Source of the DNA: Lachnospiraceae bacterium | GTDB lineage: Bacteria; Bacillota; Clostridia; Lachnospirales; Lachnospiraceae | NCBI GenBank assembly: GCA_910574865.1 | Contig: CAJTDN010000002.1 | Span: 248,001 to 312,000 of the forward strand | Length of the DNA stretch: 64,000 nt | Direction of reading: 5' to 3' | Shown: positions 26,426 through 40,175 of the stretch, piece by piece | Layout of the letters: the number at the start of each line of letters is the position of its first letter | Position numbering within the stretch: the stretch's first letter is position 1 | Position numbers and translations under genes: made by a program | The notes under the pieces: model-generated | What the model saw: only the letters and a program-made list of their open reading frames with translations | What the model was told of the DNA's origin: nothing | Databases searched by the model: none

Positions 26426-27142
26426 TTACAATCCAAATATCTGCTGGTTTTCTTGTGCATCGTACAGTGCACGACAAATATAAAAATCAGCAGGTTCCGT
26501 AATCTTAATGTTATTTTTAGTACTTTGAACCATGTGCATGGATTCCTGGTACATGCTGCATAAATGAGCCGAGTCAATGCTTTTTTTTCCATCCTTTTGT
26601 GCTTGTTCGTATAAACGCAGAATCTTCGCGTAATAAAAAGATTGTGGTGCTTTTGCAACATACATTTCATCCCTGCATGGCACATCAGCAATGTCTTTTC
26701 CATCTTTGCTTCGAATCACGCTTTCACGAGCGGCTTCGCATGTAATGGCGTTTCCATAAGATTTTACGCCTTCTATGTTGCGTGTGATAAGTTCTTCCGT
26801 TACCAACGGCCGCACACCGTCATGAATCAGGATGATGTCATCTGCGGCAGCAAACTCCCTCATGGATATAAGACCCTGATATATGGAATCATGTCCCGTG
26901 CCGCCTCCCGGTACAATGGAATGCACTTTTTTAATGCCATACCGAGAAATCAAACCCTTCAATTCACCAATCCATTCCCTAATACACACAATTACAATAC
27001 TGTCAATTTGCTTGTGACGTTCAAAATGCTCCAGCGTATAAATAATAATTGGCTTCCCATGTATTTCCAAAAATTGTTTTGGCTTGGAACTAGAATTCAT
27101 GCGCCGCCCCGCCCCGCCGGCAAAAACAAGTGTAGTATTCAT
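26426..27142 (-). CDS. IspD/TarI-like cytidylyltransferase
   Basis: A 238-residue nucleotidyltransferase of the IspD/TarI family, which forms CDP-alditols such as CDP-ribitol or CDP-methylerythritol. Signatures are FAGGAGRRMNSSSKPKQF, GKPIIIYTLEHFE, ILIHDGVRPLVTEELI and a C-terminal KITEPADF. In IspD the last motif is KVTxPEDL. Because it sits in a glycan cluster with a CDP-glycerol-type transferase, a TarI-like role is more likely than isoprenoid synthesis. No TarJ reductase is nearby. The ribosome site AAGGATGATAGT precedes ATG. Confidence 0.75.
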   Translation of the reverse strand: MNTTLVFAGGAGRRMNSSSKPKQFLEIHGKPIIIYTLEHFERHKQIDSIVIVCIREWIGELKGLISRYGIKKVHSIVPGGGTGHDSIYQGLISMREFAAADDIILIHDGVRPLVTEELITRNIEGVKSYGNAITCEAARESVIRSKDGKDIADVPCRDEMYVAKAPQSFYYAKILRLYEQAQKDGKKSIDSAHLCSMYQESMHMVQSTKNNIKITEPADFYICRALYDAQENQQIFGL

Positions 27143-27228
27143 ACTATCATCCTTTTAGCTCTTTCCAAAAACTTTTATACATAAAACGCTTTCAGGCAAT
27201 TAAAGATACAAGTCCAAAATTCCTTCGA

Positions 27229-28122
27229 CTAAATTTTGCGTACCATGTCATATATTTTCTTTCCATAATTTGTCACGTCATAACAATTCAGACAAAAATT
27301 GAAATATCGTATCAGGTTAATATATTCTTTTAATCCTCCCTTTTTTTTCCTCTCGTAATACGAATTATTTACCAAATAATTACTGATTACTTGCCTATTA
27401 TAGTAATAATCTTGCCATGAAACAGTTTCAAAAGAATGTATCTTCCTCGTTTTACTAAAAAACACACTTTTGCAATGACATACTGCAGAACACCCGCCGT
27501 CAATATCCAACGGCTGAATTTCTATTTTTTCGTCACATAAATTAAAAACCGCCATTGCATTCAGACCCGTGAACGGCAAGAAAACTTTTCCGTCCACAAT
27601 TTCATACTGAAGCATAAAACGTATCGAATTTTCCGAAATATTTTCCACTATAACACTCAAATCATCCAAATACTTAATAACATTTTTCCGAACATCATAT
27701 CGAATAATACATCTGGCCTTGACTGGAAACATGTACACATATTGTTCACACACACATGCCCCAAAGTAATATAAATCTGTTTTTCCCGTTTTGCTCAGCT
27801 TTAATGCTACAGACATGAACTCATTTGTTTTTATATCATACGAAATAATGTATCTGCTTCGAAACGGGACAAAAATAAGTTTTTGTCCCACACAAACCAC
27901 ATAAGAATGCTGACATTGACGCCAAATATCATAATTCGGAAACTTCATCAGAATTTCTATTTTTCCAGTCGTCTTGTTTATTTTTTCAAGCCCGTTAAAA
28001 TACACATTGGAAAACCATATTGCATTCTCCACCTCTGCATACCCAAATGCTCGAGACTTATATATTTCATCCATCTTCTTTACTACTGCCTCTTTATTTT
28101 GCTTGTCTACATAAATCACCAA
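27229..28122 (-). CDS. Unknown protein, possibly a beta-propeller
   Basis: Up to 297 residues. The start is uncertain: a TTG at 28122 has no ribosome site, and an internal ATG at 28074 gives MDEIYKSRAFGYAEV. I do not recognise a family. Recurrent short strands such as GLEKINKTTGKIEILMKFP, YIISYDIKTNEFMSVA and CIIRYDVRKNVIKYLDD suggest kelch- or WD-like propeller blades. It is strongly AT-rich. The position between a GT2-TPR protein and a cytidylyltransferase suggests a role in the glycan pathway, but this is only by association. Confidence 0.6.
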   Translation of the reverse strand: MVIYVDKQNKEAVVKKMDEIYKSRAFGYAEVENAIWFSNVYFNGLEKINKTTGKIEILMKFPNYDIWRQCQHSYVVCVGQKLIFVPFRSRYIISYDIKTNEFMSVALKLSKTGKTDLYYFGACVCEQYVYMFPVKARCIIRYDVRKNVIKYLDDLSVIVENISENSIRFMLQYEIVDGKVFLPFTGLNAMAVFNLCDEKIEIQPLDIDGGCSAVCHCKSVFFSKTRKIHSFETVSWQDYYYNRQVISNYLVNNSYYERKKKGGLKEYINLIRYFNFCLNCYDVTNYGKKIYDMVRKI

Positions 28123-28203
28123 GGAGTAATTTAATCTTTTCCCACGTCGCTACAAATCCATAAATAACACTGTCATTCATTAGTTCTTCTTACCACTTCT
28201 CTC

Positions 28204-29949
28204 TCACTTCCCAAATATGTCCCCGCGTCCGTCCCCTATGAACCGCGCCACCTGCCTATAGGCCGGCGTCGCCTTCAACGCCACCACCTCCGGCGCGTCT
28301 TTGGGATACAAGGATAAAAGCGTCCTCACCTGCTCCGCCAGTGCCATAAGCTCCTCGGACGGCTCCCCCGCCTTTAGTCCCGGCGTATTCTCCGTCAGAT
28401 ACTCCACCATCCCCGTATACTCCTTAAAGCAGGAAAGACCGGCCTTAAGGTTCTTTACATATTCCCGCAGATTGCCCGCGTCCAGAGCCGCAAACGCGCG
28501 GATGGCGTACCACCCAAAGCGGTGCCTTGCAGGCAATTCCTCTATCTCCTCTTCATTGAGAACTTCCGCTTTATAAAACGCCGACAGGAAGCCCTCTTCC
28601 ACATGCGTAAACAGACGTGCCAGTGTCATTCCCTCTGGATTCCCTTTCCCGCCTCCCGTCCAGTCAAACCGTTGCACCGCCTCTTGCACCGCCCTATTCA
28701 ACCACCGAATCTCCTCCAACTCTTCCGCGTTTACGCGTTTTCCCATATAGCCGCGTAACACGTCCGACAGAAACTCCCCCGCTTTCCTGATTTTCCCGAT
28801 TTTCAAACACGCCTCCGCCAGAAACAGCCTCGTCTGCCTCTCCTTCGCCGGAGACGCAAGATAAATCACGCTACTGGCCAGGGTTTCCCGTTCCCCCCGG
28901 CCGGCGCGATATTCCTTGAGCGCCGCAAGGTACTTCTCCCCGTGTCGGACGCATTCCTCGTAGTCCCCCTTGTTCCAACTGTAAGCGCACGCGTAGCACT
29001 CCACGTCGATTCCAGTCAAAAACGACTCCGGGAAAAGCTCCTCCGACCGGGAAATCCATTCAGCCAGCTCCGCATCCAGCCCCGACTCATACGCCGCACG
29101 TACCGCGTTGCGTAAGACCGCCGGGCCGAAATATTCCCACCCCGGCTTTTTCTCATCCACCAGGTGTACGCTTTCACGAACCCACTTCTCGTAGTCCTCC
29201 CAGCCCCTTGAGCTTTCGATATAGTGTACAAGAACCGAAAGATTCTCCGGCTCTTTCGCAAGCTTTCCCTTTAACAAGGCGCGGTTTCGCTCCTGCTTTG
29301 CCCGCTCTCGCTCCTTCGTCGTCTTTACATAACCGTCGTGATGCAGGATTGTTCCCGAAAGTGCCGCTGTCTCCCGCGCCGCCCTCTTCGGCAGCACAAT
29401 CTGCTCGTGAACCGCCCCCTCGTAATGCACCCCCGGCAACAAGCGTACCAGGCGCACAGCCATGAAGTCCGCATAATCCCCGTCCATATCCGCTGTCTCA
29501 TACCCATCCGGGCATCCCGTGTCTGATGCGCCTCGCGCCAGCGAACCCTCCGGGTTCGTCAAGGGATGCCCCTGGGTATAATTCCGCACAAGCAGGGCGG
29601 CAAGATTTTTTCCCTCCCCGTCCTTGTCCAGAAACCCTACAAGTTCCGAAACATCCGCATCCAGGTATTCGTCCGTGTCCACTGTCAGATACCATTTTCC
29701 CGAAGCGCGCTCCAGCACCGTGTTCCTCGCCGCCGCGAAATCATTAACCCACGGGAAGTCAATCAGGACGTTAGCGTACCGCTTTGCAATCTCCCGGCTT
29801 CCATCCGTGCTCCCCGCATCTGCCATGACCAACTCGCAGGAAACCCTCTCCCGCAGGGAGACAAGTGCCTTCAGACACCGTTCCAAGCTTCGTATTTCAT
29901 TTTTAAAAATGATGCCAATCGTCAAACATGGCTGTTTTGTCTGTCCCAT
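28204..29949 (-). CDS. Family 2 glycosyltransferase with C-terminal helical (TPR-like) region
   Basis: A 581-residue protein. Residues 1-230 form a GT-A domain of the WaaE/SunS-like group: TIGIIFKNEIRSLERCLKAL, MADAGSTDGS, NDFAAARN, and the metal motif TVDTDEYLDADV. The remaining 350 residues are helical repeats resembling TPRs, common in enzymes that glycosylate proteins. It lies 123 bp downstream of the flagellin gene on the same strand, so flagellin O-glycosylation is the natural hypothesis. The ribosome site AAGGAGAAACGCCGC precedes ATG. Confidence 0.85.
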   Translation of the reverse strand: MGQTKQPCLTIGIIFKNEIRSLERCLKALVSLRERVSCELVMADAGSTDGSREIAKRYANVLIDFPWVNDFAAARNTVLERASGKWYLTVDTDEYLDADVSELVGFLDKDGEGKNLAALLVRNYTQGHPLTNPEGSLARGASDTGCPDGYETADMDGDYADFMAVRLVRLLPGVHYEGAVHEQIVLPKRAARETAALSGTILHHDGYVKTTKERERAKQERNRALLKGKLAKEPENLSVLVHYIESSRGWEDYEKWVRESVHLVDEKKPGWEYFGPAVLRNAVRAAYESGLDAELAEWISRSEELFPESFLTGIDVECYACAYSWNKGDYEECVRHGEKYLAALKEYRAGRGERETLASSVIYLASPAKERQTRLFLAEACLKIGKIRKAGEFLSDVLRGYMGKRVNAEELEEIRWLNRAVQEAVQRFDWTGGGKGNPEGMTLARLFTHVEEGFLSAFYKAEVLNEEEIEELPARHRFGWYAIRAFAALDAGNLREYVKNLKAGLSCFKEYTGMVEYLTENTPGLKAGEPSEELMALAEQVRTLLSLYPKDAPEVVALKATPAYRQVARFIGDGRGDIFGK

Positions 29950-30000
29950 GCGGCGTTTCTCCTTTTCTTTCTACCATGAACTTATCTCTTTGGCATGATT

Positions 30001-30034
30001 ATTTAAAAATCGGGGCGGGCCAAAGCCCGCCCCA
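30001..30034 (-). terminator. Rho-independent terminator of the flagellin gene
   Basis: On the minus strand the stem GGGGCGGGC/GCCCGCCCC with loop TTTG is followed by GATTTTTAAAT. It lies 39 bp after the flagellin stop, so the downstream glycosyltransferase is mostly expressed from its own promoter or by readthrough. Confidence 0.9.
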
Positions 30035-30072
30035 ATCCATATCCGAAACCGAATAAAGTAATCCACCCCAAC

Positions 30073-31824
30073 TTACTGGAGAAGCTGCAACACGCCCTGC
30101 GGAATCTGGTTCGCCTGGGCCAGCATGGCCTGCGCGGACTGAACCAGGATGTTGTTCTTCGTGTAAGCCATCATTTCCTCCGCCATGTCAACGTCGCGGA
30201 TGCGGCTCTCAGCGGCGGTCATGTTCTCGGTCGCAACACTCAGGTTGTTAATCGTGTGCTCCAAACGATTCTGGATTGCACCCAAGTCACCACGGGTGGA
30301 GGACACATAGTTAATCGCGTCTTTAATCTTCTTAACCGCATCCGAAGCTCCGGCCTGCGTGCTGATGTCCACATCGCCAATGCCCATCGCCTTCGCATGC
30401 ATATCGTTGACGGAAACACGCATCTTGTTGAAATCATCCGAAGTATCGCCAATCTGAAGAACCAGACCGCCGGTAGCGGCATCGCCCTTGCTCAAACGGA
30501 TACCCTGGCCTATACCTATTGCGTTCCCATCCGTCGCACTTGCCTCTGTTACTTTCAACCCCGTAACTTCGGCAATTTTCTGGATGTTCTGTTGGAAGTT
30601 GGCATCAGTGCTCATCAAACCATTTTTTGGAGTCCCACCTTGAACGGATTTGTCTACGGCATCTTTATCACTGATTAAGATTGTAACATCCGATCCCAAG
30701 CCCTTCGTGGCGTTCATCATCTCCACATCGCCTGCCGTATGGGTAGCAGCAACATGGGTAGCCGTCATATTACCAGTCATAAGCACGAACTTGTGACCGT
30801 TAATTTCAAACACGGCATCCTCATAATTGGTGCCATCGTACAAAGTAAGCGTTTTCGCATCAATCTCACGACCGTCATCACTGCCTAAGTCTCTCTTTAC
30901 ACCCATATCAGTCGGTCCTGCTGTTGGTTTCTGCACCCCATCCGTCGTCACATTCACATCAAAGCTCTCGACATACTCGCTATAACCAACATTACGAGCC
31001 TCAAGCTTTATCGTATTGCCAGCAGCACCAGTCGTAATATCCCAGTCCTTGGCCAGATTCGTCTTGTCAAGCTCCTTTTTGATAGCATCGGCAAGATTCT
31101 CCGCCGTAACCTCTGTCGTCTTTCCGTCACCAGCTGTATCCAACTTATCATAGACGGTCTTTCCGTCGGCAGACCTCAACTGATAAGTCCCGTCATCCTT
31201 CTTTTCCATCGTAAATTTGACTTGCTGAGAAGTGCCGTCATTGAAACCGATGTTGAATGTAATCGTGCTGCCTTCTTTCATATCAGCCGCATCAACGTCA
31301 TCAAACGCAACGTTCGTCTCAAAAGAAGCCTTGCTGCCCGGGGACTTGATGCTGTTCGCATTCCCACCAATCTTAACCTCGGTAGCTCCTCCTTTTGCAG
31401 ACAAAGAACCATCCAACAAGTTGATTCCGTTGAAGTTCGTGCTGTCAGCGATACGGTTGATTTCGTCTTTCAGGGAAGCAACTTCCTTCTGAAGGTTCTC
31501 ACGGTCCACTTCGTCAGCGTATGTTCCGTTCGCGGACTGGTCAGCCAGTTCTATCATACGGTTCAGCATGGAGTGGATTTCCGTCATGGCACCCTCGGCC
31601 GTCTGCACCAGAGAAATACCATCGTTGGCATTCTTCTGGGCGGTCTTCAGACCGGTAATCTGGGCACGCATTTTTTCGGAAATCGCCAGGCCGGCAGCGT
31701 CGTCGCCCGCGCGATTGATTCTGTAACCAGAGGAAAGTTTCTCCAAGTTCTTGGAAACGGCACTGTTGTTTACAGTCAAGTTACGATAAGAGTTTAATGC
31801 AGCAATATTGTGTTGAATCCTCAT
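30073..31824 (-). CDS. fliC: Flagellin
   Basis: A 583-residue flagellin, the filament subunit. The conserved N-terminal D0/D1 segment (MRIQHNIAALNSYRNL, then LEKLSSGYRINRAGDDAAGL) and C-terminal segment (RIRDVDMAEEMMAYTKNNIL to QGVLQLLQ) flank a variable central D2/D3 region of about 350 residues rich in Thr, Asp, Lys and Gly. Many surface Ser/Thr residues would suit O-glycosylation. A strong ribosome site AAGGAGGTAGAATC precedes ATG and holds GGA motifs suited to CsrA binding. The csrA-like gene is directly upstream and glycan genes are downstream. Confidence 0.95.
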   Translation of the reverse strand: MRIQHNIAALNSYRNLTVNNSAVSKNLEKLSSGYRINRAGDDAAGLAISEKMRAQITGLKTAQKNANDGISLVQTAEGAMTEIHSMLNRMIELADQSANGTYADEVDRENLQKEVASLKDEINRIADSTNFNGINLLDGSLSAKGGATEVKIGGNANSIKSPGSKASFETNVAFDDVDAADMKEGSTITFNIGFNDGTSQQVKFTMEKKDDGTYQLRSADGKTVYDKLDTAGDGKTTEVTAENLADAIKKELDKTNLAKDWDITTGAAGNTIKLEARNVGYSEYVESFDVNVTTDGVQKPTAGPTDMGVKRDLGSDDGREIDAKTLTLYDGTNYEDAVFEINGHKFVLMTGNMTATHVAATHTAGDVEMMNATKGLGSDVTILISDKDAVDKSVQGGTPKNGLMSTDANFQQNIQKIAEVTGLKVTEASATDGNAIGIGQGIRLSKGDAATGGLVLQIGDTSDDFNKMRVSVNDMHAKAMGIGDVDISTQAGASDAVKKIKDAINYVSSTRGDLGAIQNRLEHTINNLSVATENMTAAESRIRDVDMAEEMMAYTKNNILVQSAQAMLAQANQIPQGVLQLLQ

Positions 31825-31850
31825 GATTCTACCTCCTTGAATATGTTTGT
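31814..31850 (-). promoter_or_regulatory. Candidate CsrA-binding leader at the flagellin ribosome site
   Basis: The flagellin leader reads TTCAAGGAGGTAGAATC directly before ATGAGGATTC. The two AGGA motifs, one being the Shine-Dalgarno itself, are spaced as CsrA sites often are on flagellin mRNA. I found no convincing sigma-28 promoter in the 190-bp gap upstream, and the remaining gap sequence shows nothing else I can name. Confidence 0.4.
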
Positions 31851-32015
31851 TTAGAGTGCTTTCGCTTCATGCTATGGCACTTGTTACTTTTCCTGCGTCT
31901 TTTGCCCTTATAACCATGGCCATGCTTTTTGGCAAACCAACGCGGATCTATTCCAACCGGCTCGCGAAACCGGGTGAAACCTACATAACCTTAAACGGAC
32001 TAATTCCGTGTATTT

Positions 32016-32537
32016 TCACGCGCTTTTCGAATCCTTGCCGCCTGCGGCTTTTCCATCCGCGCTTTCCCCACCGGCGATTCTTCCGGCGGCAACTCCGCCG
32101 TTCGTTCTCCCGGCGTTCATGATTCCCTCGTTCAGGCTTTCCCATATGCCTGACAGTTCCCGCATCTGCGTCCGTACAAGTTCCAGCTCACGCCGTCTCA
32201 GTTTGTGCTCTGGGTTGTCCAGTATCTCGCCCAACTGGTACAGTATGCCCGCGCAAATCTCCTGCCCGCTCCGATACGTTTCCTGCCTCTTTTTCACCTT
32301 TTGGAGATACTGCGCATAATGCTGTTTATCCGACGGCGAACGCTTCGGTTTTCGATCCAGCAGCCCCTCCGGCCGTTGCTCGCCGTCGCGCTCAAGCACC
32401 TTCCCGCGCACGATGGAAACCTCCTTCGGCGCCTTGATGGAAATGCGAAACTGCGGTCCCGACTCCTTGAACACCTGCACCACCACCCGATCCCCGATGG
32501 TGACATAATCTCCCGACTTCATCTGTAACGAAAGCAT
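32016..32537 (-). CDS. csrA: CsrA-domain protein with long C-terminal extension
   Basis: A 173-residue protein. Residues 1-54 are a CsrA RNA-binding domain: MLSLQMKSGDYVTIGDRVVV, GPQFRISIKAPKEVSIVR, and GKVLER, keeping the C-terminal Arg needed for GGA recognition. Normal CsrA ends at about 60-75 residues. Here a charged helical region follows (about 60-150) and then a Gly/Ala-rich tail with AGGK repeats. It lies upstream of flagellin on the same strand, matching CsrA control of flagellin translation. No fliW is seen. The extension may be a new partner-binding module or be partly dispensable. Confidence 0.8.
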   Translation of the reverse strand: MLSLQMKSGDYVTIGDRVVVQVFKESGPQFRISIKAPKEVSIVRGKVLERDGEQRPEGLLDRKPKRSPSDKQHYAQYLQKVKKRQETYRSGQEICAGILYQLGEILDNPEHKLRRRELELVRTQMRELSGIWESLNEGIMNAGRTNGGVAAGRIAGGESADGKAAGGKDSKSA

Positions 32538-32558
32538 GACAGAAACCTCCTTATTTCC

Positions 32559-32722
32559 TATAAAAGTCCCGGACGGCGGCGAAACGATAGCAAGCTTGCT
32601 TGCATATTCGTTTCGACATCGGACAGGCTAACCCGGATGAGCAAGTAGGGTGTCAGCCCGAATTGTGAATCCGGGCGACGATTGCGGGAGTGCGTAAGCA
32701 CGAAGCAATCGGTTTTTATTAC
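32559..32722. repeat. Family C palindromic repeat, copy 3 (inverted)
   Basis: Reverse-complement copy of the repeats at 13214-13376 and 14834-14997, keeping the stems GATTGC...GCAATC with inner GTGC/GCAC and CGAAACGA...TTCGTTTCG. It lies directly upstream of the csrA-like gene. The rest of the 32538-32905 gap holds a recombinase-site-like palindrome (separate entry) and no gene. Confidence 0.87.
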
Positions 32723-32847
32723 CAAAAGTCCCGGAACTTTTGCCCACCTATCTAATATGACATTTTTTGTTTGCATTTTACGCCGCCTGCGTCTACAATA
32801 AATCTTGTAAGGCATCCTCTGAAAAAAATGTCGCCCACCGTATAGTT

Positions 32848-32872
32848 TTCGCAGAACGGGCGATTCTGCGAA
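32848..32872. repeat. Left 9-7-9 inverted site flanking the integrase
   Basis: TTCGCAGAA, then CGGGCGA, then TTCTGCGAA. The same 25 bp occur as the exact reverse complement at 34351-34375. The pattern of two 9-bp inverted arms around a 7-bp asymmetric core is that of a tyrosine-recombinase core site. A hairpin reading is also possible, but no T-run follows on either strand. Confidence 0.6.
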
Positions 32873-32905
32873 AATCTCAAAAAATCCCAGCCTTACGCCG
32901 TTTCT

Positions 32906-34126
32906 TCATACCGTCCGACCACAAATCTGACCACAAACCTCCCTATAAAAACCTGAAAGAGCCCCCAACTGTTTCCGCTTGGAATCCATGGTCGGGTGGA
33001 CATAACGGTTCATGGTAATCTTTACTTCAGAATGTCCGAGAATCTCGCTCAAAGACTTCACATCCATCCCGCACTCGATGCAGCTCGTGGCAAACGTGTG
33101 CCGCAACATATGGAAATTCCGCTCGTCCACTTGTGCCATCGCGAGTATTTTCTTGAACCGGTACTGCAACGTCCTCGGCTCCATGGGTCTGTCCCCGCCG
33201 AACACGTAAGGCCGACTTTTGTCCAAATGGGAAAGAAGCCCCTTGACTTCCGCCGGGATGGGAATCTTCCGCCGGGAACTTTCGCTTTTCGGCTCCGTTT
33301 CCAGCAAGACTGTCTTTGTACCCCGCTTTCCATGCGGACGTGTCTCCCGGTCCCCGGACTTGTCCGCGCCTTGATTTTTGACGGCAAGCCTCTGTACCGT
33401 ACGGTTCACGGACAGCGTCATTTCCAGGAAATCCAAATCTGACCAGCGCAGTGCGCACAACTCACCAATCCTCACCCCCGTGTATAGGCAAAGCACGAGC
33501 GCGGCATCATATTTGTCCGGCTCCGCGCCTTTCTCACGGATGATGGAAAACATACGCTGACGCTCGGACTCGGTAAACGTCTCCAACACCTTTTTCCCCT
33601 GGCCCGTATCAGGACGTTTCAAGAATGGGAGCAGCAAGCCGTATTTTTCACCGGCATAGCGCAAAATCTGGTTGACAACGCAGCAAATGCTTTTTTGCAG
33701 GCTTTCCGAAAAACCTCCCGATGACAAGTGGTCAGAAATCTTTTTCAGAAAATTTTTGACGTTGGCGTTTGACAAGCGGGAGTCGCCAAGAAGGGCAGAA
33801 AGATGTGTCCGGTAAACTGTTTCATATTTTATGTAAGTTGAATACTTGCCTTTCTCCCTCTTTACATCCAGCCACTCCGCCGCCACGTCGGAAAACAAAA
33901 CGTACGCGTCTGTATTCCCCATGCCATGCACCATTCCCGTCACGTCAGACAAAAGATTTTCTTGAGTGGTCATTTTTACGATGGCAAGCTTTTCCTTTAC
34001 CGCGGCATATGAATATCCATAAACCGAATGATAGATGTAACGTTTCTTTCCCGCATGATATACCTTGTGCCGCCCTTCCCAGCGTCCGTCCTTGCGCTTC
34101 CTTATGTTTTCCCCACGTCGTGCCAT
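32906..34126 (-). CDS. Tyrosine site-specific recombinase (integrase)
   Basis: About 406 residues, starting MARRGENIRKRKDGR after GGAGAAACGAC. An N-terminal AP2-like DNA-binding segment (RWEGRHKVYHAGKKRYIYHS) is followed by a SAM-like core-binding domain. The C-terminal catalytic domain has Arg in YTGVRIGELCALRW, HMLRHTFATSCIE (HxxR), H in LGHSEV, and the nucleophile Tyr in NRYVHP. It is a phage/ICE-type integrase by family, but no phage or conjugation genes accompany it. Two inverted 25-bp sites flank it, 33 bp beyond its stop and 224 bp before its start. It points toward csrA and flagellin. Confidence 0.92.
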   Translation of the reverse strand: MARRGENIRKRKDGRWEGRHKVYHAGKKRYIYHSVYGYSYAAVKEKLAIVKMTTQENLLSDVTGMVHGMGNTDAYVLFSDVAAEWLDVKREKGKYSTYIKYETVYRTHLSALLGDSRLSNANVKNFLKKISDHLSSGGFSESLQKSICCVVNQILRYAGEKYGLLLPFLKRPDTGQGKKVLETFTESERQRMFSIIREKGAEPDKYDAALVLCLYTGVRIGELCALRWSDLDFLEMTLSVNRTVQRLAVKNQGADKSGDRETRPHGKRGTKTVLLETEPKSESSRRKIPIPAEVKGLLSHLDKSRPYVFGGDRPMEPRTLQYRFKKILAMAQVDERNFHMLRHTFATSCIECGMDVKSLSEILGHSEVKITMNRYVHPTMDSKRKQLGALSGFYREVCGQICGRTV

Positions 34127-34350
34127 GTCGTTTCTCCTTCCGTACAATGTCAGAGGCTCCTTCCCCTGAAGATTTTGACCACAAAAATGACCCTTATTAT
34201 CGCTTCCCGTATGTTCTTTTTTCAAGAAACACCCCTATCCGGCACTGCGGTTTTTGCAAAAAACCAAAAAAACTTTCAAAAAGTTGTTAACTTCTGAAAG
34301 AAGATGCCGATATAGTATGTGTACGAAGATAAAATCTATGTTTTATCCAT

Positions 34351-34375
34351 TTCGCAGAATCGCCCGTTCTGCGAA
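34351..34375. repeat. Right 9-7-9 inverted site flanking the integrase
   Basis: TTCGCAGAA, then TCGCCCG, then TTCTGCGAA: the exact inverse of the site at 32848-32872, placed upstream of the integrase. On the plus strand it is followed by TTTTT, so a weak terminator function is possible as well. Confidence 0.6.
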
Positions 34376-34545
34376 TTTTTGTGTCTTTCGACACCGAACG
34401 TTCCCATTGATTTTGTACATGTTTTGTAATTATCCAGAACCCCCTCAGTTGTACATTTTCTCGCGGTCCACGCGGTAAATGCCGCCATGCGCATCCTACG
34501 GGACGATGCAACGTTCTATTTCCACGCATATTTATTGTAACAAGT

Positions 34546-34824
34546 TAGCGTCGGTGTACAAAAGGCAACACGGTCGATGAAGGACATATTTCCCCTCTTT
34601 CATCGTTACTTTCACTCCGCGTACGTCCTTGTACGCGTCGCTTAAGTGCCTTGAAAGAGGGGAAATATGCCTCTTCACGACTCTACGACCTCACCCATAG
34701 GGATTTCAAGGGTTTTCAAGGAAGATGAATGAGGCGTACAAGGACGTACGCCGATTGAAGATGACGCTGAAAACCCTTGAAATCACATGGGTTGAGGCGT
34801 GTTGCCTTCTGTACACCGACGCTA
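34546..34824. repeat. Family A cloverleaf-like repeat element (full length)
   Basis: A 279-bp element with 27-bp terminal inverted repeats beginning TAGCGTCGGTGTACA (one mismatch). Inside are two arms. Arm 1 is an 18-bp perfect stem (34585-34602 with 34652-34669) tipped by CGCGTAC-GTCCTT-GTACGCG (34618-34637). Arm 2 is a 17-bp perfect stem (34702-34718 with 34768-34784) tipped by GGCGTAC-AAGGAC-GTACGCC (34733-34752). The two 6-nt loops are perfectly complementary. Shortened copies lie at 54981-55047 and 40187-40201. It contains no credible ORF. Confidence 0.85.
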
Positions 34825-34944
34825 CATATGCCTTTTTGAATTTATTTTTGAGCAGTTCCCAATTTCCGTAAGCGTCAGGAGAAATCTTGTGAAAACTTTA
34901 CGATGAAATAATTGAAAAAGTGAGAAAAGGACGTTATAATGTGT

Positions 34945-35188
34945 ATGATACCAGGGTCAAAAGGTCATGCGTTCCACGCTTGCATGGAAAAGCATGACTT
35001 TGGAACCTGCAAAACACCGAAAAGAACTTCCTAAGAAATGAGCGGATTCGAGGTGTTTTAGGGCACTGAACGTCCAATGGACGTTCGTTTAGTGCCGACC
35101 ATAGCGGAGCGGAGACAACGAGAGCACGTAGTGCGGAGTAATCCGTGGGTATCATGGGGGCAAAACTTGTTTTGGCCCCAACATCATC
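34945..35188. repeat. Family B structured repeat, copy 2
   Basis: Opposite orientation to copies 1 and 3. Ends are ATGATACC and GGGTATCAT, followed by the tail hairpin GGGGCAAAAC...GTTTTGGCCCC and ACATCAT. Stems GTCATGC/GCATGAC and AAAACACC/GGTGTTTT are kept. It has an extra hairpin GGCACTGAACGTCC/GGACGTTCGTTTAGTGCC in the middle (about 35058-35097). It lies directly before the DUF5721 gene. The rest of the 34127-35243 gap holds a family A element, the right integrase site and no gene I can support. Confidence 0.85.
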
Positions 35189-35243
35189 ATGTGTATATGT
35201 CATGAAGAGAAATACGTGAATGTCTTACGATGGAGGAACTGCC

Positions 35244-35732
35244 ATGATTGCCTTAAAGCTTACCAGCCCTAAAAATTTCATGTCCCACCTTTTGTTATCA
35301 GAGACGTTCGACCATTTTTTATTAATCGAGGGGGAGATTACCACCTTCAACACGTTCCACATAGACGGTTACATGCAGAAGGAATTTTTTGAAAGTCCGG
35401 AAGGCCTGCCGGAATACTCACCTTGGAAACAGACAAGGGAATTCTGCCACTCCCTCATCAGGGGAAAGCGCACGCCGCTTGCTTTCAAATTTATTTTCAG
35501 CCTTTCCGCGGAAAATATCGCCCGGTTTATCGAGAGCGGCCATCTGGACTTCAAGCCCGATGACGTGCAGGGGCTCTACATGAACATCCGTTTTGACGAA
35601 AACGGCTTGAATTGCGTGACGGGAACATCGCTTAAGACGTTTTCCATGGACAAGTCGCTGGAAAAGGGTTGGGACGCGATGGTACAACGTTTTTTCACTA
35701 AAAAGGATATCGAGTATGACGTGGTTGCCTAA
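35244..35732 (+). CDS. DUF5721 family protein
   Basis: A 162-residue soluble protein starting MIALKLTSPKNFMSHLLL after GATGGAGGAACTGCC. It matches the Lachnospiraceae DUF5721 family in pattern: HIDGYMQKEFF, SPWKQTREFCHSLIRGKRTP, then GTSLKTFSMDKSLEKGWD near the C-terminus. Function is unknown; there is no signal peptide or membrane segment. It stands alone between a repeat element and a terminator. An in-frame ATG 24 bp upstream has no ribosome site. Confidence 0.8.
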   Translation: MIALKLTSPKNFMSHLLLSETFDHFLLIEGEITTFNTFHIDGYMQKEFFESPEGLPEYSPWKQTREFCHSLIRGKRTPLAFKFIFSLSAENIARFIESGHLDFKPDDVQGLYMNIRFDENGLNCVTGTSLKTFSMDKSLEKGWDAMVQRFFTKKDIEYDVVA

Positions 35733-35739
35733 GGCACAC

Positions 35740-35776
35740 GACGGGGCAGGTTCAAAGAACCCGCCCCGTCCTTATT
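35740..35776 (+). terminator. Terminator after the DUF5721 gene
   Basis: Stem GACGGGGCAGGTT/AACCCGCCCCGTC (one mismatch) with loop CAAAG, followed by CTTATTT. It begins 8 bp after the stop. Confidence 0.75.
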
Positions 35777-35805
35777 TCCATAATGCCTTGTCCCCATCAC
35801 GTTTC

Positions 35806-35848
35806 CGTACGGTCAGCGCGGTAGACGCGCTGACCTAACCGTACCATA
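35806..35848. repeat. Palindrome at the 3' side of htpG
   Basis: GTACGGTCAGCGCG, a short loop, then CGCGCTGACC-TA-ACCGTAC: a nearly perfect hairpin directly downstream of the minus-strand htpG stop. Similar sequence occurs at 8917-8950. No T-run follows. Confidence 0.6.
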
Positions 35849-35852
35849 ATCA

Positions 35853-38066
35853 TCACTTCGTCAACAGCATCATGATTTCATTGCTTCTCTGCACGAACGC
35901 CGTCATCTCCTCCGGTGCAAGTGGCTTGTGCGCCAACATCGCCAGGTCATACAACTGCTTGCAGATAATGGTCACGTTCTTGCTACGCTTGTGCTCCACG
36001 ACAAACTTCACCAACGGATGGTTCGCGTTCAGTATCAGCGTCGCCTTGCCGCCATACATGCCGTCCATGTTACCCATGCCATACATGCGCATCATCTCTT
36101 CCATCCTCCGGGATTCTTCGGAAAGCACCGCCATCGACGCCACGTTGTCGTCCTTTAAGTTCTCCACCTTCACGTCCAGCTTTTCATTGCCCAGCTCCTT
36201 GCGGAAAATCTCCACCAGGCTGTCCGTCTTCTTCTGGAAAGCCTCCTTGTCTTCCTCCGCCACGTCCGCCTTCATGGACTCGTGCACGTCGGAGTCAATG
36301 CGGCAGAACTTCACGTTCTCGTTCTTCTGCTCCAGGTAGCTGACAAACGGCGCGTCAATGTTGTGCGTCAGGATGACCGCGTCTTGTCCTTGTGCCTTAA
36401 ACATGTTGACATACTGGCTCTGCTGCTGCTCGTCCGTCACATAATAAATGGTCGTCTTCTCCGGCTCTTTTTCTTCCTCGTCCGCATCATCGCCATCCGC
36501 ATCCGCGCTTTCCACATCCGCGCTTTCCGTGACGTCACCCTCTTCCACGACCTCGGCCTCCACGCTCTCGCCGTCCTCGGTACGGGCACGTCCCGCCGCT
36601 TCTTCCACGGCATCCGCATTTTCGGCAGCCGCATCTCCCGCCGCGTCCTTAGCGCCATCGGTGGCCGCTTCGACTTCGGCCGCCGCGCTTTCCCCGCTTT
36701 CCGCCTTAGCCTCTTCCTTCTTGTCCGCGGCGATGCAATCCTCCAACGTCAAATACTTATGGTCAAGGTTTTTAAACAAAATGGATCCCTTGATCTTCTC
36801 GCCAAACTTCTCGTCCTTCAGGCAGCCGAACTTGATGAACGGATTGATGTCGTCCCAGTATTTTTCATAATTCTCCCGGTCGGTCTTGAACATCCCGTTC
36901 AACTTGTCGGCCACCTTCTTGGAAATATAATCGGCCACCTTGTTCACGAACCCGTCGTTTTGCAGCGCGCTACGCGACACGTTCAGCGGCAGGTCCGGAC
37001 AGTCGATGACGCCCTTTAACACCGTCAAAAACTCCGGAATCACTTCCTTGATGTTGTCCGCGATGAACACCTGGTTGTTGTACAGCTTGATTTTGCCTTC
37101 GATGGAGTCGTACTCCATGTTAATCTTCGGGAAGTACAAGATTCCCTTCAAATTAAACGGATAATCCATGTTCAGGTGAATCCAGAACAACGGCTCCTTA
37201 TAATCCATGAACACCTTGCGGTAAAACTCCAGATAATCGTCCTTCTCACACTCGCTCGGGTTCTTGCCCCACAGCGGATGCGTGTCGCTTAAGGAAACCG
37301 GGCGTTTCACGATCTTGGCCTTCTTCTTCGGCTCGCCTTCCTCGCCCTCCTTCGGCTCCTCGGTAATGTGCTCGACCACCTTGTCCGTCTCCAGCACGTC
37401 CGCCTCGTCAATCGTCTCGTACTCCTCCGGCGCGTTGGCCTTGGAGAGGAAAATCTCCACCGGCATGAAGGAGCAATATTTCTCCAATACTTCCCGCGCC
37501 CGGTACTCGTTGGCAAACTCCAAACTGTCCTCGTTGAGGAAAAGGGTAATCTCCGTACCCACGCCCTCCTTCGTGCCCTCGCCCATCTCGTACTCGGTGC
37601 CGCCGTTGCTCACCCAGTGCACCGCCGCCGCGTCCTTCTGGTAAGACAACGTGTCAATGTGCACCTCGTCGGCTACCATGAACGCAGAATAAAATCCCAG
37701 ACCGAAATGCCCGATCATCTCATCGTCCGTCGTCTTGTCCTTGTACTTCTCCAAAAACTGGGTCGCGCCGGAAAACGCGATGCGGGTAATGTACTCCTCG
37801 ACCTCGTCGGCCGTCATGCCAAGACCGTTGTCGATAAACTTGAGCGTCTTCTCCTCCGGGTTGACGATGACCTGAATCTTCGCCTTATAATCCACAGGCA
37901 TCTCGTACTCGCCCATCATGTCCAGTTTCTTCAGCTTGGTAATCGCGTCGCAACCGTTAGACACCATCTCACGCATGAAGATGTCGTGGTCCGAATACAC
38001 CCACTTCTTGATAATCGGGAAAATATTTTCACTGTCAATGGATAAACTGCCTTTTTTCAACACCAT
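35853..38066 (-). CDS. htpG: Hsp90-family chaperone HtpG with acidic insertion
   Basis: A 737-residue ATP-dependent chaperone starting MVLKKGSLSIDSENIF after GGAAGGAA. The GHKL ATPase domain shows MREMVSNGCDAITKLKKL, DNGLGMTADEV and HFGLGFYSAFMVAD. The middle domain has GILYFPKI and FVNKVADYISKKV. Between the middle and C-terminal domains (about residues 448-533) sits an Ala/Glu/Asp-rich low-complexity stretch not found in ordinary bacterial HtpG of about 620-630 residues. The C-terminal part ends in ANHPLVKFVVEHKRSK and PLAPEEMTAFVQR. Expression should be under HrcA through a perfect CIRCE element. Confidence 0.95.
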   Translation of the reverse strand: MVLKKGSLSIDSENIFPIIKKWVYSDHDIFMREMVSNGCDAITKLKKLDMMGEYEMPVDYKAKIQVIVNPEEKTLKFIDNGLGMTADEVEEYITRIAFSGATQFLEKYKDKTTDDEMIGHFGLGFYSAFMVADEVHIDTLSYQKDAAAVHWVSNGGTEYEMGEGTKEGVGTEITLFLNEDSLEFANEYRAREVLEKYCSFMPVEIFLSKANAPEEYETIDEADVLETDKVVEHITEEPKEGEEGEPKKKAKIVKRPVSLSDTHPLWGKNPSECEKDDYLEFYRKVFMDYKEPLFWIHLNMDYPFNLKGILYFPKINMEYDSIEGKIKLYNNQVFIADNIKEVIPEFLTVLKGVIDCPDLPLNVSRSALQNDGFVNKVADYISKKVADKLNGMFKTDRENYEKYWDDINPFIKFGCLKDEKFGEKIKGSILFKNLDHKYLTLEDCIAADKKEEAKAESGESAAAEVEAATDGAKDAAGDAAAENADAVEEAAGRARTEDGESVEAEVVEEGDVTESADVESADADGDDADEEEKEPEKTTIYYVTDEQQQSQYVNMFKAQGQDAVILTHNIDAPFVSYLEQKNENVKFCRIDSDVHESMKADVAEEDKEAFQKKTDSLVEIFRKELGNEKLDVKVENLKDDNVASMAVLSEESRRMEEMMRMYGMGNMDGMYGGKATLILNANHPLVKFVVEHKRSKNVTIICKQLYDLAMLAHKPLAPEEMTAFVQRSNEIMMLLTK

Positions 38067-38196
38067 TTCCTTCCACACTCCTTTTTTGAATTGATACCGG
38101 CACGGCCTGGCCGGCACTTCACATGCCGCGCGGATGCCGCTTGTTTTTTGCCTAATGGACATTCTAATACAATGCTTTCCAAATGTCAATACAAAA

Positions 38197-38223
38197 TTAG
38201 CACTCTTCTCGCAAGAGTGCTAA
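38197..38223 (-). promoter_or_regulatory. CIRCE operator (HrcA site) upstream of htpG
   Basis: TTAGCACTC-N9-GAGTGCTAA, a perfect match to the CIRCE consensus. On the minus strand it follows a candidate -10 TATAAA (38227-38232) with a TTGCGC-like -35 (38248-38253, 15-bp spacing), placing the operator at the transcription start. HrcA repression and heat induction of htpG are predicted. Confidence 0.95.
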
Positions 38224-38264
38224 TAATTTATAAAAACTTTATACATTGCGCAAAAATTACCAAC

Positions 38265-38315
38265 AAACAAGGTGCGAAGCCTTTGATAATTCCATAAAGA
38301 CTTCGCACCTTGTTT
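38265..38315 (-). terminator. Hairpin between the small gene and the htpG promoter
   Basis: A 15-bp perfect stem, AAACAAGGTGCGAAG/CTTCGCACCTTGTTT, with a 21-nt loop. On the minus strand it ends in CTTGTTTGTTG. It lies 25 bp after the stop of the 63-residue gene, so a terminator is likely. Confidence 0.55.
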
Positions 38316-38340
38316 GTCAGACGCTATTCAGCTGTGGTAA

Positions 38341-38532
38341 CTACTCCTTTATTTTGTCAATGTCTGTAAGGTTCACGCCCGATACATTAAGCAATGCTTT
38401 TATCGTCAAATATTCGTCTTTTAACTTGGCATAGGTCTCGGTCGCGTTTTCTTTCTTTGCCAATACCATGTACTCTTGAATCTTTTTGAAATCGTCAAGA
38501 GCTAGTTTTGTCACTTCAATTCCAGTTGGCAT
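38341..38532 (-). CDS. Small helical protein of unknown function
   Basis: A 63-residue protein, MPTGIEVTKLALDDFKKI with a C-terminus DLTDIDKIKE-like in character. The ribosome site TAGGTGATTAT precedes ATG. It is fully soluble and mostly helical, with a gene-like charge pattern. I do not recognise a family. It has its own downstream hairpin and lies upstream of the htpG promoter on the same strand. Confidence 0.6.
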   Translation of the reverse strand: MPTGIEVTKLALDDFKKIQEYMVLAKKENATETYAKLKDEYLTIKALLNVSGVNLTDIDKIKE

Positions 38533-38960
38533 ATAATCACCTACTTTCTGTAATCTGTACCGATTTCTACATTATTGATTTTATATTATTAATCATAACA
38601 GATTTATAAAAAGGTGTAAAGTCATACAAGCATAATTTGCCCCACTTAATTTTGTCTGATACCGAAATATAGACCTCGGTCAACATTTCCTTAATCTGTT
38701 TTTGTAAACTTATCCCTGCTTCTGTCTGTCCGTTGTGGCACACCCCGCCCTGCTCCAGCCCTTCCCGCCCCGGCTGCCCCTCATGGTTTTTCGCATAAAA
38801 AAGCAGTATAGCATAGCTACTATGCATTGTCAAGTAGCAATGACATAAAACAACTAGCACAAGTCGAAGCCAAACTCTTTGTTCATTCCTGGCAGGATTT
38901 TCACAATATTGTCATGAAAACTCTTTTCATTCCCTGTTTTGCCTAGAAACCCCACAAATA
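38533..38960. other. Gap with possible decayed coding sequence
   Basis: Short minus-strand frames (38567-38860 and 38854 onward) contain gene-like pieces such as SLQKQIKEMLTEVYISVSDK and FHDNIVKILPGMNKEF but no ribosome site, conserved domain or plausible start. They may be remnants of one broken gene. Nothing else is identifiable here. Confidence 0.3.
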
Positions 38961-38962
38961 AT

Positions 38963-38992
38963 TTGCAAATGTCAGAAAGAGTATGATATGAT
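38963..38992 (+). promoter_or_regulatory. Candidate promoter of the glycerate kinase gene
   Basis: TTGCAA at 38963-38968 and TATGAT at 38987-38992 with 18 bp between them. The start codon follows 55 bp later, with AGAAAGGAAAC as ribosome site. Confidence 0.5.
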
Positions 38993-39047
38993 ACTGTTAC
39001 AAACGGCAACATAAATAGATGACACGAACAGAAAGGAAACAACACAA

Positions 39048-40175
39048 ATGAAAGTAGTAATCGCGATTGACTCATTTAAGGGAAGCCTCTCCTCCATGGA
39101 GGGCGGCAACGCGGTAAAGGCCGGCATCCTGGCCGCCAGGCCGGACGCGCACGTCGTCGTAAAACCCCTGGCGGACGGGGGCGAAGGAACAACCGACGCG
39201 CTGACCGAGGGTCTGGGCGGCGAACGGATTGACCTTTCCGTGACCGGGCCTCTGGGCGAACCGGTGGACGCTTATTATGGGCTGCTTCCCTCGACAAACA
39301 CCGCCATCATGGAAATGGCGGCCGCCTCCGGCATCACCCTGCTGCCGGGCGGTGCGAAAGACCCGCTGCGCGCCTCCACCTACGGCGTGGGGGAGATGAT
39401 TGCGGACGCGGTTACCAGGGGATGCCGCGACTTCATTATCGGCATCGGCGGCAGCGCGACGAATGATGGCGGAATCGGGATGCTGAAAGCACTTGGATTT
39501 ACGTTCCTGGATGAAAACGGGAACGACGTGGGCGAAGGCGCCCAAGCCCTGGCCAAGGTTGACACCGTCCAGACACAAGGGCGGCTTCCCGAATTAAAAG
39601 AATGCCGATTTCGTATAGCATGCGATGTAATTAACCCCCTTTGCGGGGATGATGGAGCAACTTTTGTCTACGGACCGCAAAAGGGTGTCACCGACGACAT
39701 GAAACAGCCGCTCGACATGGCGATGGCACATTTTGCCGACGTGACCGCCACCGCCCTGGGCAAGGACTTGCGCGACGTACCCGGGACGGGGGCGGCAGGC
39801 GGCCTCGGCTTCGCCTTCCTAAGCTACTTGAACGCACGTCTCACGCCGGGGATCGACCTGATACTTGACGCGGTCAAATTGGAGGACGAACTCGCGGACG
39901 CCGACATCGTCGTGACCGGCGAGGGCCGGCTCGACTTCCAGACCGCCATGGGCAAGGCTCCCGTGGGCGTGGCAAGGCTCGCCAAAAAACACGGGGCGAA
40001 AGTCATCGCCTTCGCCGGCGGCGTGACGAAAGAAGCGCGCGCCTGCAACGGAGCCGGAATTGACGCCTTTTTCCCAGTCGTAAGAGGGGTCACCACCCTT
40101 GAGGAAGCCATGAATCCGGAGAACGCGAGAGCGAACGTGACGGACACGGCGGAGCAGGTATTCCGGCTGATGTAA
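39048..40175 (+). CDS. Glycerate kinase (GarK/GlxK family)
   Basis: A 375-residue kinase phosphorylating D-glycerate (the 2-phosphoglycerate-forming type is usual). Signatures are MKVVIAIDSFKGSLSSMEGG, VKPLADGGEGTTDALTEGLG, FIIGIGGSATNDGGIGML, and DIVVTGEGRLDFQTAMGKAP with GVARLAKKHGAKVIAFAGGV. Length is normal for the family. It is monocistronic, with its own promoter, and is followed by a solo end of a family A repeat. Confidence 0.95.
   Translation: MKVVIAIDSFKGSLSSMEGGNAVKAGILAARPDAHVVVKPLADGGEGTTDALTEGLGGERIDLSVTGPLGEPVDAYYGLLPSTNTAIMEMAAASGITLLPGGAKDPLRASTYGVGEMIADAVTRGCRDFIIGIGGSATNDGGIGMLKALGFTFLDENGNDVGEGAQALAKVDTVQTQGRLPELKECRFRIACDVINPLCGDDGATFVYGPQKGVTDDMKQPLDMAMAHFADVTATALGKDLRDVPGTGAAGGLGFAFLSYLNARLTPGIDLILDAVKLEDELADADIVVTGEGRLDFQTAMGKAPVGVARLAKKHGAKVIAFAGGVTKEARACNGAGIDAFFPVVRGVTTLEEAMNPENARANVTDTAEQVFRLM

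Follow-up and report, generated by a model that had tools for sequence, protein, structure and literature searches.

The 1.5-kb segment at 32848-34375 of the window, by which we mean the whole 64,000-nucleotide stretch of Lachnospiraceae DNA analysed, is probably a self-contained phase-variation cassette, in which an enclosed tyrosine recombinase flips the segment and an outward sigma-D-type promoter thereby toggles a csrA-flagellin gene pair. The reading draws on what the sequence itself displays, namely the anatomy of the segment, matched sites throughout a family of related cassettes, inverted configurations between related loci and conserved outward promoter motifs. The features concerned are:

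30073-31824, minus strand: flagellin gene (Pfam), presumably sharing a transcript with the csrA-like gene
32016-32537, minus strand: csrA-like gene (Pfam), the first gene downstream of the left site
32848-32872, no strand assigned: left recombination site (9-7-9), at the recombinase 3' end on the csrA side, with no T-run outside
32906-34126, minus strand: tyrosine recombinase gene, 406 aa from the ATG at 34126, or longer if read from a TTG at 34225
34196-34225, minus strand: promoter-like site that could drive the recombinase (10 of 12, consensus match only)
34287-34314, plus strand: putative outward sigma-D/sigma-28-like promoter, TTAA-N15-GCCGATAT, pointing away from csrA (consensus from PMC3720852)
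34351-34375, no strand assigned: right recombination site, exact inverted copy of the left one, at the recombinase 5' end
34351-34380, plus strand: terminator-like structure (putative function), the site hairpin plus five T outside

In the mechanism we propose, the tyrosine recombinase would exchange strands between the inverted 9-7-9 sites, whose 7-bp cores are identical, and so flip the 1.5-kb segment with its own gene included. The sigma-D-type promoter, which lies immediately within the site at the 5' end of the recombinase gene, would be carried along. In the present orientation this promoter would fire away from csrA-flagellin and its transcript would terminate at the hairpin and T-run of the right site (OFF); after inversion it would read across the left site, outside of which there is no T-run, into csrA-flagellin, so that inverted cells with an active flagellar sigma factor would be ON. 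Inversion in this strain, as well as promoter activity, termination and the effect on flagellin, is what we infer, the probable consequence of a flip being that an alternative flagellin is switched on or off.

The anatomy given in the initial annotation, which described 25-bp ends forming exact reverse complements in a 9-7-9 layout around a lone tyrosine recombinase, is right when checked on the sequence, and the proposed self-contained inversion switch would be a variant of the inverton kind, the segment being bounded by inverted repeats. The left site reads TTCGCAGAA-CGGGCGA-TTCTGCGAA and is repeated as a perfect reverse complement at 34351-34375, the inverted match extending to 26 bp (32848-32873 and 34350-34375). 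By our own estimate the chance of a perfect inverted 25-bp pair in 64 kb is of the order of 1e-6, and such a pair is not expected. A search of the 5.33-Mb assembly for TTCGCAGAA-N7-TTCTGCGAA gave four occurrences, against none for the backward control pattern, and the second site pair (C1:202105 and 203582) is again 1.5 kb apart with an integrase enclosed, its core being TTGGCCA. The annotation had itself raised the question of whether the 25-bp palindrome is an ordinary terminator common elsewhere in the genome; with four copies only, paired around recombinases, this is ruled out. It is likewise extremely improbable that the palindromes are merely transcription terminators around a dead or lone integrase since, even if the right site is scored as terminator-like and both sites fold well, the few genomic copies come as pairs around recombinases and their asymmetric cores are matched.

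The enclosed protein, the only gene product identified in the 1.5-kb segment, matches Phage_integrase (PF00589) with an E value of 9.6e-26 (Pfam, longer reading). Residues R219, H339, R342, H365 and Y375, to which we presumptively assign the catalytic roles, are invariant across 18 aligned relatives and make up the R-H-R-H-Y set of the tyrosine recombinase superfamily, and the gene is apparently intact. NCBIfam matches all fall below the curated cut-offs. The best solved matches are 6en0, 6emy and 6emz (deposited as Int protein), which we take to be the Tn1549 integrase, with E about 1e-15 over residues 337-390 only, giving the enzyme a likeness to Tn916/Tn1549-type integrases. Unlike elements of that type, the cassette has complete inverted sites with identical cores and no conjugative cargo, the 1.5-kb segment being devoid of the conjugation and excision genes that would lie between such ends. 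Pfam detected no phage or ICE genes among the four neighbours checked, so that the earlier remark that none accompany the recombinase is borne out as far as these four genes reach; they lend no support to an ICE or phage remnant.

As had been annotated, the csrA-like and flagellin genes lie downstream of the recombinase on the same strand, the recombinase being transcribed toward csrA with no other gene in between. The csrA-like protein scores above the Pfam cut-off and below the NCBIfam csrA cut-offs. A search of positions 27000-40000 at the Rfam gathering threshold revealed no riboswitch upstream of csrA, the only matches being two Clostridiales-1 RNAs (RF01699), one on each side of the cassette (32558-32721 and 34946-35154, both on the plus strand). 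This RNA family is strikingly repeated in the same genome: of 247 candidates 150 were scored, giving a list of 99 in which 79, a lower bound for the genome, exceed the gathering score. Also repeated is a MITE-like element of about 280 bp with internal dyad symmetry at 34546-34824, the genome having at least 37 near-full-length copies, this one included, which are 95-100% identical (40 of 142 candidates scored).

The four csrA-flagellin tyrosine cassettes (the one in the window, L026, L029 and L030), which form a starred clade on the recombinase tree, carry inside the 5' site the motif TTAACTTC(T/C)GAAA(A/G)AAGATGCCGATAT, a putative promoter that in all four is oriented away from csrA. The motif fits the sigma-28 consensus given in the available text of PMC3720852, which is TAAA-N15-CCGATAT, with TAAA-N16/17-MCGATAa in Butyrivibrio and one listed flagellin promoter reading ttaa-16-ccgataa. 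The bare sigma-D pattern is not enriched in the genome (13 matches versus 14 in the backward control) and looser sigma-D-like motifs also occur in L060, L061, L115 and L135, near which no csrA or flagellin was found; the weight of the motif thus lies in its position and conservation. More generally, cassettes of the family tend to carry a predicted outward promoter beside the 5' site: within 230 nt inside this site, an outward sigma-A-type promoter scoring at least 11 of 12.5 was found in 37 of 70 cassettes, against 1/70 on the other strand and 0/70 at the 3' end. Of the internal promoter able to face a flanking gene that characterizes an inverton, the window has the sequence motif.

The two sides of the csrA cassettes differ in T content, with 7-9 T of 10 outside the promoter-side site of the four cassettes versus 1-2 on the csrA side, the run outside the right site in the window being a short one (7 of 10, five consecutive). 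Among 65 cassettes (L122, L138, L081, L107 and L127 left out), 17 have at least 6 T outside the promoter-side site, compared with 4 at the opposite site. The terminator scan calls the right site terminator-like, and the eight such calls in the region exceed the shuffles only modestly (4.5, sd 2.3). Predicted folding energies are −12.7 kcal/mol (z −3.8) for the right site and −15.3 kcal/mol (z −3.0) for the left; the asymmetry between the sides is the T-run and not the hairpin. The promoter pointing away from csrA, the terminator-like right site and the lack of any minus-strand hit of the promoter scan in the interval from the cassette to csrA together lead to the prediction that the present orientation is OFF.

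This is the opposite of what follows from the control initially annotated, in which the recombinase transcript would read through the left site into csrA-flagellin, the present orientation would be ON and inversion would switch the genes off. Readthrough could make use of a recombinase transcribed toward csrA with nothing between, of the promoter-like site at 34225-34196 upstream of the recombinase and of a left site lacking a T-run. However, it leaves unexplained an outward promoter that is of sigma-D type in the four csrA cassettes and of sigma-A type in many others, and the T-run sits on the side toward which this promoter presently points. The sigma-D-like motif at 34287-34314 (+), facing away from csrA-flagellin, accounts better for the arrangement; we therefore regard readthrough as unlikely and an invertible sigma-D promoter as probably the better candidate mechanism. 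A lower likelihood still is to be given to a switch serving the right-hand side, where the promoter at present faces the RNA gene and DUF5721: although DUF5721 (35220) is the first sizeable co-directional gene on this side, a terminator-like hairpin, the repeated element of 280 bp and an RNA gene that has a promoter-like site of its own intervene, and what the four related cassettes have in common is the csrA side, not the right side. Moreover, DUF5721 is found in 12 of 12 genomes of the genus and no related recombinase was found beside its other copies (flanks up to 1.5 kb), so that this alternative is highly improbable.

The inversion cassette in the window belongs to a larger family. Integrase matches were found in 11 of the 12 genomes of the genus, and the 98 loci examined comprise 18 from the genus and the best 80 of 581 relatives from a scan of genome contigs. 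An inverted pair scoring at least 12 surrounds the integrase at 77 of these loci, the other 21 having none, and after dropping seven pairs as weak or irrelevant (L035, L041, L070, L100, L106, L134, L137) 70 of the 98 recombinases, a set that includes the best 80 of 581, are enclosed by a kept site pair (L032 lies on the same contig as L075, and L111, L112 and L114 are one element). A score of at least 19 was reached by 66 of the 70 kept cassettes versus 13 of 1500 swapped 5'/3' pairings, a control that matters because the exact 10-base seed of the finder favours letter-matched pairs. Around other tyrosine recombinases of the genus no pair with this score was detected (0 of 11, the gene limits of eight being taken from a partial match).

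The site arms resemble TTTCG(C/T)AGA, and the 7-bp core is identical, in inverted orientation, at both ends of 65 of the 66 distinct pairs, the exception (L122) being out of register. Among these 66 pairs 60 distinct core sequences occur. Comparing cores between elements gave 12 agreements in 4290 comparisons, a data set in which several rows (e.g. L081, L122, L127 and L138) are out of register. L122 apart, the differences between the two ends are confined to the outer and inner arms, the outer arms being more variable than the core. Tyrosine recombinases need identical overlap sequences, and in agreement with this expectation the core has changed at both ends together between the related loci L038/L042, L083/L084, L120/L124 and L117/L119, whose cassettes adjoin related genes. 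One site alone is seen at some of the loci without a pair, several of which lie close to the end of a contig, and L125 has a close site pair in a looser scan. At L097 the integrase is followed by both matched sites, at distances of 64 and 454 bp (cores TGTGATA and TATCACA), so that the recombinase stands beside an inverton of about 400 bp, adjacent and not enclosed. At L041 (G005:C8) long inverted copies of adjacent coding sequence surround a related integrase and, unlike the promoter cassettes, possibly serve gene shuffling. A search of 299 family genomes returned 15 with a match at E ≤ 1e-60. Similar self-contained switches appear to be common in related gut bacteria.

Inverted configurations were observed between related loci. 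The cassettes L077 and L079, both of isolate B85_10_CF_BP, are 95% identical and inverted exactly at the sites. Their flanks have changed places, and the exchanged sequences align from base 1 of each flank onward, with 92.8% identity over 222 bp in one case and 91.7% over 2497 bp in the other; the two loci may represent paralogous loci or two strains in one assembly. One homologous flank is found on opposite sides of the cassette in L066/L067, in L109 versus L120 and L124, and in L038/L042, and five aligned pairs have homologous flanks on the same side, including L075/L025, L027/L033, the cassette in the window/L030, and L120/L124. For L118/L027, L089/L077, and L036 or L037/L123 no flank match was found at the DNA level. 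A quick tree of 63 recombinases (leaving out L075, L112, L114, L138, L081, L107 and L127) needs at least nine orientation changes, seven of which are forced by starred branches. Here, orientation labels (30 OFF, 13 ON) were assigned manually to 43 rows, on the basis of crude gene directions or homologous targets, and 20 are unlabelled, including L087 and L102, whose crude gene directions looked ON; shuffled labels gave on average 11.3 changes, about 40 of 500 shuffles being as low as the observed nine. The initial annotation had suggested searching relatives for both orientations. These are seen between related loci, with the tree labels being crude, and this sustains the claim of a tyrosine-recombinase inversion cassette that could phase-vary csrA-flagellin, whereas the four csrA cassettes all have one orientation.

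The same comparisons bear on the possibility of an IS-like mobile element with terminal inverted repeats, in which the sites would serve transposition and the neighbouring genes would be incidental. A recombinase between inverted ends does look transposon-like, the same element is present in three genera (L111, L112, L114), and the greater variation of the outer arms over the core would also suit it. Yet most recombinase pairs above about 65% identity adjoin homologous genes, so that much of the family seems kept in place and not freely mobile, and the copies in the three genera share kilobases of flank, which indicates that a larger unit moved. Matched variable cores and inverted configurations fit inversion, outward promoters are conserved, and no empty site was found at the one candidate tried, the DUF5721 locus of G008, which has no match at all to the csrA-cassette side and is therefore uninformative. 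We hence consider an IS-like element very unlikely.

The three-genus copies consist of the same cassette and flanks in Butyricicoccus, Blautia and Agathobaculum and lie, by eye, upstream of an erm-type rRNA methylase gene, the promoter pointing away. By appearance, the genes neighbouring cassettes elsewhere encode glycosyltransferases, CDP-glycerol-type transferases, NusG-like antiterminators, regulators and TnpB/Cas12f-like proteins. PF07282 was detected in 3 of 3 of the latter tested (L059, L061, L065), and L034, L062, L066, L067, L073, L087 and L115 have such neighbours by similarity. Their RuvC acidic residues look absent by eye; these proteins may thus be nuclease-dead, and may be TldR-like regulators under phase-variable control.

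A distinct type of switch is found at three more csrA-flagellin loci, L171 (same genome as the window, G000:C16), L172 (G008:C12) and L173 (G011:C211, its csrA cut by the contig end), where a resolvase-like serine recombinase lies directly upstream of csrA-flagellin (PF00239 tested for L171 only, translation similarity for L172 and L173). At these loci 26-bp inverted repeats with 4, 2 and 2 mismatches, respectively, enclose an invertible-looking stretch of 99-109 nt that holds a sigma-D-like promoter pointing away from csrA (read by eye in L172 and L173); the L172 pair comes from a script, the inverted-repeat tool having given only an unrelated pair. The genome of the window has five full-length flagellin matches among seven above the cut-off, two of them under tyrosine cassettes, one under a serine switch and two with a sigma-D-like −10 element (TTCGATAAT) directly upstream. 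The occurrence of serine switches at loci paralogous to those with tyrosine cassettes suggests convergence. No csrA cassette in the ON state is present among the csrA-flagellin loci found in the 12 genomes of the genus, and that all seven switchable loci are apparently OFF could reflect selection in the gut, a biased enzyme or a misread polarity.

Hin is a serine recombinase that acts on 26-bp sites with a 2-bp core. The cassette resembles the Salmonella Hin/hix system, mentioned in the available text of PMC5903667, in having a recombinase inside its own inverted segment, a moving outward promoter and a flagellin target, but it differs in its sigma-D-like promoter, its 9-7-9 sites, an OFF-side T-run in the cassette and an enzyme of PF00589 tyrosine type, where a Hin-type switch has a serine recombinase. 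According to the same text, RecV of Clostridioides difficile operates switches that include the flagellar switch Cdi4 and cwpV; the likeness here is a tyrosine recombinase, inverted repeats and phase-variable flagellar genes in a clostridial relative, whereas RecV acts on several switches elsewhere in its genome and each cassette of the present family encloses its own recombinase. The available text of PMC11892184 links a Clostridia inverton group (139) to tyrosine integrase group 35. This group also has inverted repeats with a motif of their own and a tyrosine-type integrase nearby, and compared by description the cassette family is possibly the same or overlapping; that text speaks of integrases "nearby", without enclosed recombinases, element-specific matched cores or flagellin. 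We recognised no description of recombinase-enclosing tyrosine cassettes in the open-licence literature searched.

Taken jointly, own recombinase, target-suited sigma promoter, core address, site acting as terminator and separate switching would make these cassettes plug-in switches of gut Clostridia, a reading to which we give an even chance. If it is true, the conserved site arms would recruit the enzyme, the variable 7-bp core would be a private address preventing cross-recombination among the cassettes of one genome, and the OFF-side site could double as a terminator. The basis of the address idea is the difference among cores (4 of 4 differ in the genome of the window, but L077/L079 of one isolate share one). 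This Schaedlerella genome would then have three separately switched csrA-flagellin loci, two tyrosine and one serine, beside two flagellins with fixed promoters. Element-specific matched cores would allow the core-identity rule of tyrosine recombinases to be read by comparing genomes, and the use of both tyrosine and serine enzymes to switch paralogous flagellin loci within a single genome would be clear convergence. Flagellins of commensal gut bacteria are immune targets, and the cassette offers a directly testable model for their phase variation. It also points to a switch family whose recombinase usually rides inside the flipped segment.
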